A DNA stretch of 60,440 bases from a virus. Positions 51,968 through 55,464 of the stretch are shown here, piece after piece. Location: positions 1 through 60,440 of the IMG/VR virus record IMGVR_UViG_3300037070_004226. One strand, given 5' to 3'. Made by a program: the position numbers and the translations under genes. Within the stretch, counting starts at the first letter, position 1. Each line of letters begins with the position of its first letter. The notes under the pieces were generated by a model that had not been told where the DNA came from, made no database searches, and worked only from the letters and a program-made list of their open reading frames with translations.

Positions 51968-53143
51968 GTGAGCCGACTCAGAAAGCGATTCCTCGATTGC
52001 TCCAACATGACCCGCGAGGAGGCCGAGCGCTGGGGGTCAGAGTTGATCGAAGTCCAGCGGGACATTATGTTTCAGATTGGGGACCTCGCCCGCTTCGCCG
52101 AGGCGAAGTGGCCTGACACCCATACCCAAATCTGGCCGGAATGGGTTTCCCCTGGCCTGCTCTCCCGCGCCGCCGGCGTCTGCCGAGCTTATCCCAAGTT
52201 TGAGGACCGCGAGGCCGAAGCAACCTATTCCCAGTACATGCAGGTCGCTTCCAAGCCCGATCGCCTGAACCGCCTGGCCGCGATGGTCGATCAGGGGCAG
52301 ACCACTGATGAATCACGCCAAGCGGCCAAAGAGGAGAAGTCAAACGGGGGCCCCAGGTGGCTCCTGGCGATCGACGTCAACTATTTCCTACACCGCTTCT
52401 GGTTCTCGGGCGCCGGCGTCGAAGCCGCGGTCAGCGTGGCGACGTGGGTTCAGAGGACGGTGAACCGGCTCAAAGAGAAGGGACTGACAGATTGCGCCTG
52501 CTGTTTCGACTCTAAGTCGAATCACCGCAAGGAGTTCACGAAGGACTGGGAGGATAAGTACAAGGATAGACCCCCGAAGGACCCCGAACTGGTTCAGCAA
52601 TTGAACCTCGTCTATGACCTCCTGAAGGGGGCTGGCTTCGCTTGTGTGGGCTTGGAAGGGTTTGAGGCGGATGATGTGATGGCTTCCTACGCGAAGCAGT
52701 TCCAGGGCCGTGTAACGCTTCTGACGCAAGACAAAGACTGCCGGTCGAGTCTTTCCGAGAAGTGCAACATGCTCCTAGACGTGGAATGGACCACGGACGA
52801 AACGAGCGGCGACTCCCTGCCAGAATACAAGTGGCTCAGCGCCAAGACCCACACCGATAAAACCGGGATTCCTCCGTCCCAATGGGTTGCCTTCCAATGC
52901 CTGATGGGTGATGCAACAGACGGAATCAAAGGAGCGCCAGGGATCGGAGAGAAGGGGGCGGCTGACATCGTGAAGATGTTCGGGACGGTCGAAGCCGCAA
53001 TCGCAGCGGCCAAGACTGGGGACGAGCGACTGAAACCCAGGCAGCGCGAGTCTCTCATCGCGTTCGAGCCCAAAGCCGAAGTCACTCGCAAACTCGTGAC
53101 CTTAGTTGACAGCCTTGAGGTTCCAACTACCACGCGAATCTGA
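51968..53143 (+). CDS. 5'-3' exonuclease (FEN family) with N-terminal extension
   Basis: A 391-residue protein. From residue 127 it is a FEN/Pol I-type 5' nuclease: RWLLAIDVNYFLHRFWF, CCFDSKSNHRKEFTKDWEDK, EGFEADDVMASYA, VTLLTQDKDCRSSLSEKC and the helix-hairpin-helix QCLMGDATDGIKGAPGIGEK. The metal-binding aspartates of all motifs are present. The first 125 residues (TREEAERWGSELIEVQRDIM) are an added helical domain unlike the family. It removes RNA primers or flaps and may resect ends for the annealing protein. Element A begins right after its stop. Confidence 0.85.
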   Translation: MSRLRKRFLDCSNMTREEAERWGSELIEVQRDIMFQIGDLARFAEAKWPDTHTQIWPEWVSPGLLSRAAGVCRAYPKFEDREAEATYSQYMQVASKPDRLNRLAAMVDQGQTTDESRQAAKEEKSNGGPRWLLAIDVNYFLHRFWFSGAGVEAAVSVATWVQRTVNRLKEKGLTDCACCFDSKSNHRKEFTKDWEDKYKDRPPKDPELVQQLNLVYDLLKGAGFACVGLEGFEADDVMASYAKQFQGRVTLLTQDKDCRSSLSEKCNMLLDVEWTTDETSGDSLPEYKWLSAKTHTDKTGIPPSQWVAFQCLMGDATDGIKGAPGIGEKGAADIVKMFGTVEAAIAAAKTGDERLKPRQRESLIAFEPKAEVTRKLVTLVDSLEVPTTTRI

Positions 53144-53149
53144 TATGAT
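53121..53149 (+). promoter_or_regulatory. Extended -10 promoter for element A
   Basis: TTCCAA (53121-53126), 17 bases, then TGA-TATGAT (53141-53149), an extended -10 box with five of six matches. The predicted start is 53156-53157, exactly the first base of arm a. The -35 box is weak, as is usual for extended -10 promoters. Confidence 0.5.
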
Positions 53150-53156
53150 CGCCCTT

Positions 53157-53247
53157 GAAAGCATGGCTCCACGAACACGCAACCTCGGGCGGAATGTCCG
53201 CGCTATCTGCGCTGGCCATGCTTTCACCCGCCCGAGGTTGTTTCATT
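53157..53247 (+). ncRNA. Interleaved double-hairpin element A
   Basis: Four arms are arranged a-b-a'-b': a GAAAGCATGGC (53157-53167), b AACCTCGGGCGG (53181-53192), a' GCCATGCTTTC (53215-53225), b' CCGCCCGAGGTT (53228-53239), followed by GTTTCATTT. Both pairings are perfect (11 and 12 bp). A small hairpin GCGC-tatct-GCGC lies between b and a'. The pairs cross, so they form either a pseudoknot or two exclusive hairpins, the second with a T-rich 3' flank like a terminator. A promoter should start at arm a. Element B has the same plan. Confidence 0.7.
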
Positions 53248-53272
53248 TGAGGAAAGCACAAATGAAGGCCCC

Positions 53273-53809
53273 ATGCCCAAGCTGACCCCCGAACAGAGAT
53301 CCCAGAACGCCCGCGAGCGGATGCTTGATTGCGCCAAGCAATATCAGCTTGGAACGTACAGCCGGAAGTTCGTTGCGCCCGTATTCCAGGAGATGATTCG
53401 GGCGGAAGCCGGGGCCATGCCCGAGGGGTTCACGACAACCATCATTAACGGCGATATCGGCCAGAGCTTCCGAAGCGAGGGCGATTGCGCCTGCGTCACC
53501 TGCGGAACCGTCAAAGCGTGGGACAGCGGCATAAAGGGAATCCACTGCGGCCATTTCCTCGCGTCGAGGTGTAACTCGATTCTGTTTGAAGAGGACAACG
53601 TGGCCCCTCAGTGTTCGGCCTGTAATTACTATCGGAGCGGGGAACCACAGCACTTCAGACACTGGATGCTCGAAGTCCGGCCCGAAGCGGTCGAGCGATT
53701 AGAGCGGCTTAAAACCCAGTCGAAGACGTTCACACGGGATGAGCTCGTGGATATGCGAATCGGTTATAAAGCGCGGCTGGATGCAGCCGTTGAAAGGATG
53801 AGAACATGA
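53273..53809 (+). CDS. ninG: NinG/Rap-like recombination protein
   Basis: A 178-residue protein with the NinG signature: CACVTCGTVKAWDSGIKGIH, CGHFLASRCN, ILFEEDNVAPQCSACNYYRS. The cysteine pairs bind zinc and the His/Asn residues form an HNH-like nuclease core. Lambda NinG (Rap) resolves recombination intermediates, which fits the nearby annealing protein and exonuclease. The best ribosome site (TGAGGAAAG) lies before an ATG at 53262 that opens a seven-codon frame (MKAPCPS) overlapping the ninG start, so a short leader peptide may couple translation. Confidence 0.85.
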   Translation: MPKLTPEQRSQNARERMLDCAKQYQLGTYSRKFVAPVFQEMIRAEAGAMPEGFTTTIINGDIGQSFRSEGDCACVTCGTVKAWDSGIKGIHCGHFLASRCNSILFEEDNVAPQCSACNYYRSGEPQHFRHWMLEVRPEAVERLERLKTQSKTFTRDELVDMRIGYKARLDAAVERMRT

Positions 53810-54129
53810 ACATCGAGCGATTACTGGACTGGGTGAACAAGGCCATTCACTTGGCGACTTTCGACCGCGAACGGTTTCGCGTGAGAGCCATCCAAAGCGT
53901 CGATGGAACCGAGATTCAGATGTACGCGGAAACGCGATTCCCCTTCCCAGAGGAAGGGAAGATACTCGTGAACTACCAGATTGTTCGGCTGGAGGACTGC
54001 GCCAACGGATTCGACGTGAGGCAACTGACTGACATCGTGGAAGGCGCGGTCCAAATGCTTGAGTGGAAGATCGAAGACGATGGTAAATCGGTTACGCGGC
54101 CCGATTACAAGCCGCGGTGGCAAGGATGA
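53806..54129 (+). CDS. Hypothetical 107-residue protein
   Basis: Begins MNIERLLDWVNKAIHLATFD and continues with an alpha/beta middle (ILVNYQIVRLEDCANGF) and an amphipathic helix (DIVEGAVQMLEWKIEDDGKS). The start overlaps the ninG stop, so it is probably a partner of the recombination module. No family recognised. Confidence 0.6.
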   Translation: MNIERLLDWVNKAIHLATFDRERFRVRAIQSVDGTEIQMYAETRFPFPEEGKILVNYQIVRLEDCANGFDVRQLTDIVEGAVQMLEWKIEDDGKSVTRPDYKPRWQG

Positions 54130-54142
54130 AGGGAGACAGCCA

Positions 54143-54343
54143 ATGTTAGTTCTGAGTCGAAAGAGGAATGAATCAATCATGCTAGGCGACGACGTGAAGA
54201 TCACAGTCGTCAGTATTAAATCGAACGCAGTTCGGCTAGCGATCGTCGCTCCATCGAACATCCCAGTTCACCGGCAGGAAGTTTGGGACGACATTCAGAA
54301 ATATGGGTCGAAGCGCTTGACAGACGACCCGCTGGAAGAGTAG
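54143..54343 (+). CDS. csrA: Phage CsrA/RsmA RNA-binding regulator
   Basis: A 66-residue protein with the full CsrA core MLVLSRKRNESIMLGDDVKI, TVVSIKSNAVRLAIVAP and IPVHRQEVWDDI, including Arg6 and the VAP-x-x-x-x-VHRxE RNA-binding motif. CsrA dimers bind GGA in loops of mRNA leaders and control translation and stability. The ATG follows GGGAGACAGCCA. The promoter of element B lies inside its 3' end. It may act on phage leaders, the host carbon-storage network, or both. Confidence 0.9.
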   Translation: MLVLSRKRNESIMLGDDVKITVVSIKSNAVRLAIVAPSNIPVHRQEVWDDIQKYGSKRLTDDPLEE

Positions 54344-54346
54344 ATT
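54317..54346 (+). promoter_or_regulatory. Promoter for element B inside the csrA 3' end
   Basis: A perfect -35 TTGACA (54317-54322), an 18-base spacer and TAGATT (54341-54346, four of six). The expected start is near 54353-54355, the first base of arm a of element B. Because this is the same relation as in element A, the promoter assignment gains support. Confidence 0.55.
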
Positions 54347-54354
54347 CTCCACAT

Positions 54355-54458
54355 GCACGAAACCAGAATGATTCCCGCACAAGTGTAAAGCCCGGCTGGG
54401 GAAATTCTGCGCGGCTCTGCCGCACTGGTTTCGTGCAAACCCAGCCGGGCCTCCCTTG
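54355..54458 (+). ncRNA. Interleaved double-hairpin element B
   Basis: Arms: a GCACGAAACCAG (54355-54366), b GCCCGGCTGGG (54390-54400), a' CTGGTTTCGTGC (54425-54436), b' CCCAGCCGGGC (54440-54450), then CTCCCTTGTTT. Both crossing pairings are perfect (12 and 11 bp). Between b and a' lies a small hairpin GCGGC-tct-GCCGC. The arm sequences are unrelated to element A while the plan, spacing (2-3 bases between a' and b') and the middle segment (GAA-T-TC-GCGC-TCTGC) are shared. GGA straddles the end of arm b in both, a possible CsrA contact. Confidence 0.7.
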
Positions 54459-54471
54459 TTTGGAGTTGATA

Positions 54472-55464
54472 ATGGAAACCAAATCGCTCCCAGTTGACCT
54501 GCTCCGAATCGACGCCGGAACTCAAAGCCGACTGGCGATCAACGAAGAGGTCGTCGAGGACTACTCTGAAATAGTCGAAGGCTCAAAGCAGTGGCCCTTC
54601 GACGAGATCGACGTGTTCCACGACGGCAGCGATTACCTCGTGGCCGACGGCTTCCACCGGACACTCGGGGCGAAGAGGGCGAAGCGGGCCTCCATTCCCT
54701 GCCGAGTTCACAAGGGAACAGCCATCGACGCCCGCATCTTCGGAATGACCGCGAACGACCGCCACGGCCTGCGAATGAGCCGAGCCGACAAAAGGTCATG
54801 CGTCGAGTGGCTTTTAGACAACCAGCCCAAGATGACTCAGGCGGACGTTGCTGAGAAATCTGGCGTAAACCCAAGGACAGTAAGGCGTATCGTCGCAGAC
54901 CGCAAGCCTTCGGTTCTGGACAAGAATAGGACATTGTCCTACTCCAGTGACAAGGTGGACGATTCAATCAGCGAGAAGGGGAGGTCCGGCGGCGAAGTGT
55001 CTACGTCGTCAGCTACAACCCCTGCTTCGACCGCCCCGGAACCCGGCGAGGCCGCTGATCTTCCGCTGGACTTCGACCCATTCGGCTTTGATTCACGAGG
55101 AGAGGATGAACGAACGGATACACAGGGCAATGAGGCCCAAGGAACGGATCCCCGGCCGCCGAGGAGTGGCAAGGACAAGCCGGGGACTGGGACATGTCCC
55201 TGTTGCACTGGGAAAAAGTGGGTTCAGGACGAATTCGGATTCACCTGCGCCAAGTGCCATCATCCGTGGGGCGAAGTGGCTGATGTCCAGATCGAGGAGC
55301 AAAAGGATCACGTTGGAACGCTTCGCTCGAAGACGGTTAAGACGGTCGAGGCCCTGATGCGGGCGTTCGGCGACCTGAATCAACTCTGCCCCAAGGCGGG
55401 TACTCATAAGACGGCGATTGATCTGTGTAAGACTCTTCTGAAAAGCGCCCAATCATGGAAATGA
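54472..55464 (+). CDS. ParB/Srx-like domain protein with zinc ribbon
   Basis: A 330-residue protein starting METKSLPVDLLRIDAGTQSR; this ATG is chosen because sequence upstream is element B. Residues 1-100 match the ParB N-terminal fold (EEVVEDYSEIVEGSKQWPFD, VADGFHRTLGAKRAKRASIP); residues 105-150 are a helix-turn-helix (MTQADVAEKSGVNPRTVRRI). A disordered Ser/Thr/Pro/acidic linker leads to a zinc ribbon (CPCCTGKKW...CAKC) near residues 245-265 and a helical end. It may bind phage DNA for partition, transcription or packaging control. Confidence 0.75.
   Translation: METKSLPVDLLRIDAGTQSRLAINEEVVEDYSEIVEGSKQWPFDEIDVFHDGSDYLVADGFHRTLGAKRAKRASIPCRVHKGTAIDARIFGMTANDRHGLRMSRADKRSCVEWLLDNQPKMTQADVAEKSGVNPRTVRRIVADRKPSVLDKNRTLSYSSDKVDDSISEKGRSGGEVSTSSATTPASTAPEPGEAADLPLDFDPFGFDSRGEDERTDTQGNEAQGTDPRPPRSGKDKPGTGTCPCCTGKKWVQDEFGFTCAKCHHPWGEVADVQIEEQKDHVGTLRSKTVKTVEALMRAFGDLNQLCPKAGTHKTAIDLCKTLLKSAQSWK

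Follow-up and report, generated by a model that had tools for sequence, protein, structure and literature searches.

Two intergenic elements of a viral genome, here called A and B, are in our reading, held with moderate confidence, leaders at the 5' end of two early operons of a phage, with an attenuation-type design in which one long-range helix (a:a') opposes another (b:b'). Both lie in the window, the whole stretch of 60,440 nucleotides that was analysed (IMG/VR virus record IMGVR_UViG_3300037070_004226, positions 1 to 60,440). The layout is not limited to these two copies: leaders of this design recur in a phage group, in most cases around an intrinsic terminator, and keep complementarity and position but not the sequence of the arms.

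Element A (53156-53240; all features given here are on the plus strand) is found between an exonuclease gene and a ninG gene. Its promoter is predicted by consensus match as TTCCAA-17-TATGAT (53121..53149), with the -35 box TTCCAA at 53121-53126 and an extended -10, TGaTATGAT, whose -10 proper occupies 53144-53149. The exonuclease stop codon TGA (53141-53143) directly precedes it, the first base of the -10 being the one right after the stop. Arm a (TGAAAGCATGGC, 53156-53167) has the predicted transcription start as its first base and is followed by arm b (CAACCTCGGGCGG, 53180-53192), by a small hairpin GCGC-tatct-GCGC (53200-53212) recognised in the sequence and in a constrained fold, by arm a' (GCCATGCTTTCA, 53215-53226), the partner of a, and by arm b' (CCGCCCGAGGTTG, 53228-53240), the partner of b, after which comes TTTCATTT. 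The a:a' and b:b' helices comprise 12 and 13 perfect pairs, the spacers L1, L2 and L3 measure 12, 22 and 1, and a single base separates a' from b'. Taken in isolation the two forms have similar energies, -31.6 kcal/mol for a:a' and -32.6 kcal/mol for b:b'. The 3' flank UUGUUUCAUUU is moderately T-rich and provides a weak U-tract. About 32 nt 3' of b' stands the start codon of a NinG/Rap-like endonuclease gene (53273..53809; Pfam PF05766, E=6e-12; PHROG 5034). The A leader also holds a 7-codon uORF, ATGAAGGCCCCATGCCCAAGCTGA (53262-53285), preceded by a GAGGA motif and overlapping the ninG start codon.

Element B (54354-54450) repeats this plan behind csrA (54143..54343; 66 aa; PF02599, E=1.8e-23). 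Its predicted promoter, TTGACA-18-TAGATT by consensus (54317..54346), overlaps the csrA stop codon with its -10 box (54341-54346). Arm a (TGCACGAAACCAG, 54354-54366) and arm b (GCCCGGCTGGG, 54390-54400) are followed by a small hairpin GCGGC-tct-GCCGC in the constrained fold (54411-54423), then by a' (CTGGTTTCGTGCA, 54425-54437) and b' (CCCAGCCGGGC, 54440-54450). Thirteen a:a' and eleven b:b' pairs are perfect, with spacers L1 23, L2 24 and L3 2, the last being the two-base gap between a' and b'. The isolated forms are again similar (-37.2 kcal/mol for a:a' and -32.5 kcal/mol for b:b'), and the 3' flank CUCCCUUGUUU is poor in T and has no U-tract. A gene for a ParB-like/HTH protein follows (54472..55464; HTH_3; PHROG 1033, ParB-like), with a GGAG Shine-Dalgarno motif and an ATG 21 nt 3' of b'. 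The wider neighbourhood encodes a 5'-3' exonuclease, NinG, an unknown protein, CsrA, the ParB-like/HTH protein and a helicase.

The preliminary description of this DNA had recognised the perfect a-b-a'-b' interleaving, the small hairpin between b and a', and the position of each element after one gene and shortly before another, all of which stand, although its positions were one or two bases off. The T-rich 3' flank that it ascribed to both is moderate in A and poor in B.

With arms of at least 9 bases, A and B are the sole interleaved perfect pairs on the plus strand of the window, and the two found on the minus strand (reverse coordinates 5991 and 7201) are the same elements seen from the opposite side. 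Thirty Markov shuffles gave a mean of 0.57 interleaved pairs per window at this arm length and 0.03 at arms of at least 10. A start site close to arm a had also been proposed for both elements; by promoter consensus the predicted +1 indeed lies no more than a base away from arm a in each, and a random position of the window has a comparable promoter (at least 8/12, within one base) with a probability of 0.0024.

The claim that pairing rather than sequence is maintained was borne out by orthologous loci. A related phage, L039, whose exonuclease is 80% identical to that of the window, carries at the locus equivalent to B, between csrA and a gene sharing its C-terminus with the ParB-like protein of the window, the element GTGATAACCCCCG...CCGGATCCGCTGGGG...CGGGGTTATCAC a CCTCCAGCGGGTCCGG. 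B and the L039 element have the promoter and the b-a' spacer GGGGARATTCTGCGC in common, their a arms show no similarity and the pairing is maintained; their arms cannot be aligned by column. Two elements found through their arms only (L039 12430 and L007 5730) turned out to have promoters matching the consensus at 10/12 and 11/12 bases at the same position. Two leaders of L186 have in common TTGACA-17-TATGTTTACCAGAAGTTC, their first bases, the U-tract and the RBS, while their arms, CGGACCCGCAAA and GGGCCTGCCAG, are unrelated. Ahead of orthologues of the ParB-like gene, the leader arms likewise differ among the window, G012, G033 and G004. The arms are thus wholly different both between paralogues and at orthologous positions, and the promoter and flanks are conserved.

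The leader design is not findable by sequence search. Element B, used as a query against 30 related records, retrieved no new members, and an IMG/VR search with the spacer TGGGGANATTCTGCGC gave 50 matches, among which the structure occurred only in L039 and in a near-identical relative of the window; a search with the G031 5' end gave four further matches in IMG/VR and added no member. A distant search of INPHARED with the region returned no match and no isolate near this phage. One relative of the ParB-like gene sits in a Planctomycetaceae MAG, a hint that bears on host range only.

Besides A and B, about 19 further leaders with differing and still paired arms were recovered from related IMG/VR phages. 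Members share a plan made of a sigma70-like promoter, a 5'-proximal arm a and a b:b' hairpin, then an RBS and a start codon. For most of them b:b' is an intrinsic terminator with a U-tract, located between promoter and gene, and a' lies in its apical loop, flush with b'; A has only a weak U-tract, and B and G004a have none. Throughout the curated set (n=21, A and B included), folding with a and a' held unpaired placed a' in the apical loop of b:b' (21/21), with 0-5 nt between it and the stem's 3' strand. The loop consists of a' alone in G005 (CGACTAC, CTTGCAC), and in G010a all but one of its 13 bases belong to a'. The predicted start lies 0-14 nt ahead of arm a, and in 19 of the 21 leaders a start codon follows 12-35 nt 3' of b', usually with a visible RBS. 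The genes so preceded encode NinG, ParB-like proteins, a helicase, an HTH protein and small unknown proteins. The relatives G003 and G013 lack the leader and still have the genes, which speaks against the attenuator reading. Most ParB-like loci are devoid of the element, which sets aside a tie to the ParB-like gene as such.

A scan that combined interleaved helices with a promoter and a U-tract (score at least 70) gave 18 matches in 613 kb of related phages and none in their shuffles, a few of the 18 being probably due to chance or coding sequence, such as L097 and a minus-strand match in L186. Distant ParB-like loci gave 7 matches against 0 in shuffles; of the two control sets, phages sharing only csrA gave 2 against 1, and random IMG/VR loci 0 against 0. 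In further records the scan returned G032 as a new member, and G015 and G021 again. Strong-looking matches in L030, L038, L132, L112 and L018 were rejected as coding repeats or for want of a promoter.

The link between the terminator loop and the RNA 5' end also emerged from a blind test, in which units were picked by a promoter (at least 9/12) and a terminator hairpin with U-tract alone, and the loop was then compared with the transcribed 5' leader for complementarity. Of the 46 units of the phage group, 11 reached p<=0.01 where 0.5 were expected (Fisher chi2 231.8 on 92 df), with p values drawn from single-base shuffles and a signal diluted by coding-sequence false positives among the units; this being the group in which the design was first seen, the test confirms rather than discovers. 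None of the 25 control units reached the same level (chi2 50.3 on 50 df). For the 5' leader, a rerun with fewer shuffles yielded chi2 215.9 on 92 df, whereas the same loops stayed near expectation against the untranscribed DNA upstream of the -35 box (1/46; chi2 101.8 on 92 df) and against the DNA downstream of the U-tract (1/46; chi2 99.1 on 92 df). Complementarity thus goes with the 5' end as transcribed, an indication that RNA is involved and not a DNA site. A DNA operator was also discarded on the grounds that the arms differ inside one genome and that the promoter orientation is fixed.

From this architecture, which the sequences themselves show, we infer a folding order, a competition and an on/off outcome. 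The sigma70-like promoter would start the transcript at arm a or a few bases before it, with RBS and start codon 10-35 nt past the hairpin. As a' would be transcribed ahead of b', the a:a' helix could be the first to form, with b caught in its loop, and b:b' would then have to displace a:a' or form as a pseudoknot. By opposing the terminator, a:a' would leave the gene on; anything occupying a or a' would free b:b' and turn the gene off. Since each copy has its own arms, the pairing can act on its own transcript only. The switch might be triggered by leader RNA that accumulates and pairs in trans. In A and B, with their weak or absent U-tract, the same pseudoknot may instead act on translation or on 5'-end stability.

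By geometry, competition is expected in G010a, with 12 bp of a:a' and spacers of 1 and 0, and in G032, with 11 bp and spacers of 3 and 2, whose loops are too short for both full helices. For most members with long a arms, the energies of a:a' and b:b' lie within about 6 kcal/mol of each other; over the whole set, this balance does not clearly surpass what is obtained when the values are paired at random (p=0.07). The terminator form is more stable in members with a 7-bp a:a', and there a:a' may be a mere pseudoknot.

The preliminary description had opposed an on/off attenuator to a pseudoknot with a' and b' stacked end to end, and these proved to be the right alternatives to weigh. In a stable pseudoknot both helices would coexist, a' and b' would form one continuous strand and the RNA 5' end would be buried at the junction, either protecting the mRNA 5' end or offering, close to the RBS, a binding or nucleation site through which translation would be autoregulated. 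The flush a'-b' junction, with an effective gap of 0-5 nt in all 21 leaders, is consistent with such a fold, as are the predicted start, which coincides with the first base of a in A, B, G012 and G004a, the loops of A and B, long enough for both helices together, and their weak or missing U-tract. Most members nevertheless have a true terminator U-tract, G010a and G032 have spacers of only 0-3 nt, which forbid both helices at full length, and 4-12 nt precede a in many members. We thus favour the attenuator-like design over a constitutive 5'-end pseudoknot, which we hold to be possible but unlikely.

It is improbable that the elements are stand-alone small RNAs of about 75-110 nt acting in trans, with a gene that depends on read-through alone or on expression from elsewhere. 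They have their own promoter and terminator and lengths typical of small RNAs, and an RNA of related topology, described below as family 2, is sequence-conserved; but an RBS and a start codon within 12-35 nt in 19 of 21 leaders leave no room for another promoter, and unconserved arms mean that no common target is maintained. Processive antitermination, by which a structured 5' RNA would modify RNA polymerase to pass later terminators, as the put RNA of HK022 does, appears very unlikely. It would suit elements that stand right where early transcripts begin and that in most members have a terminator inside, yet contacts with the polymerase should be conserved and no sequence is common to the members, whose arms moreover pair with the adjacent terminator itself.

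Least credible of all is control by CsrA, which the preliminary description had put forward as a possible ligand because GGA straddles the end of arm b in both elements, and which would bind there and select one pairing. The csrA gene does lie between A and B and is present in 16 of the 19 records searched. GGA occurs at b in A and B as had been noticed, and in G012 and G034, but the motif is not general: it is missing in 10 of the 14 members checked and lies partly within the b:b' stem. Furthermore, the device exists without csrA in G006 and G021, and csrA without the device in G003, G013 and the csrA-only phages used as controls. A CsrA decoy was also considered and ruled out.

To our knowledge, Rfam and the non-subscription literature searched contain no described class of this kind, in agreement with the preliminary description; no Rfam match above the gathering threshold was obtained in the window, L007, L039, L067, L073 or L091. 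The CI RNA immunity of phage P4 relies on a short leader RNA from an early promoter, with internal complementary stretches and premature termination. These traits are shared by the present leaders as predicted, which differ in having no common sequence and many independent arm sets, against one system in P4. The T4 gene 32 leader contains a small, sequence-conserved pseudoknot without terminator; here too a pseudoknot is predicted ahead of the RBS of a phage mRNA, with unconserved arms and mostly with a terminator. HDV-like ribozymes have the strand order P1-P2-P3-P1'-P2', identical to that of A and B, a 7-bp P1 and a catalytic C in J4/2. Such a ribozyme was rejected, as P1 would be 12-13 bp, only 1-2 nt separate a' from b' in A and B, and neither J4/2 nor P4 is present. 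The put RNA of HK022, which acts on RNA polymerase through a pair of neighbouring stem-loops conserved in sequence, is set apart by its description from leaders that are interleaved and lack sequence conservation.

Among attenuators, those of pT181 and pIP501 are antisense-controlled and set a competing antiterminator against an intrinsic terminator (see PMC4981023). They resemble the present leaders in their promoter-proximal position, in the intrinsic terminator that most members have before the RBS and in an earlier-made pairing that may oppose it. Unlike them, the competing helix shares no bases with the terminator stem here and the RNA 5' end pairs with the terminator loop; moreover, no countertranscript was found in our case, and the arms differ in each copy. 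The nearest repeated phage leader elements are the SAS/ESAS of cluster K mycobacteriophages, simple inverted repeats of unknown function beside the start codons of a subset of genes, which unlike the present elements have a conserved sequence and are not interleaved (PMC3203893). Reading by eye, the 13-bp start-associated sequence GGGATAGGAGCCC was seen in none of A, B and the other leaders.

Related records hold other RNA features. A second RNA of a-b-a'-b' order, family 2, is conserved in sequence in L062 (5547-5657), L067 (5525-5635), L072 (5517-5631), L073 (4583-4692), L090 (3372-3485) and L091 (3355-3469). It has a P1 of 7-8 bp (GTGGAAN/NTTCCAC), a gap of 0, a terminator stem of about 20 bp and a U-tract, and gives no Rfam match. 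Compensatory changes occur in both helices, for instance T-A, C-G and A-T at P1 position 7; they were judged by eye, alignment A2 misaligning L090 and L091. A conserved noncoding block of about 250-300 nt (GTACTCCGCACGATAGCAAGCACC ... GAATCGCTGCC) stands after this RNA and upstream of the ParB-like gene in L062 (5680-5930), L067 (5655-5900), L072, L073, L090, L074, L075, L078, L080 and L082. It looks like a large structured phage RNA and has no Rfam match in the loci scanned. A tRNA-like feature in L080 (5380-5500) has a GGTTCGATTCCCG arm, an acceptor TGATGGT/GCCATCA and a D region enlarged by an insert of about 60 nt. In L186 (8794-9010), a promoter precedes an interleaved structure of very large size, in which one pair of arms has 23 bases (ACGTTACCAATCCCGTCGC...) and another 9 bp, AGAAGTCGA/TCGACTTCT.

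Going further, one might regard the leaders as a new class of riboregulator, self-orthogonal attenuators whose 5' end closes on the terminator loop, with private arms for each operon and with leader RNAs serving as trans-acting signals of feedback or superinfection immunity, a proposal that we make tentatively and consider rather doubtful. Speculatively, a leader RNA that acts in trans and recognises its own transcript only would be well served by private arms, by analogy with P4 immunity. Should the attenuator reading be true, a whole phage group would run many of its early genes by an RNA device to which conventional RNA-family searches are blind, since only complementarity and position are kept. 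Such leaders would constitute a source of naturally orthogonal RNA switches, and more of them would be findable by combining descriptor and promoter searches.
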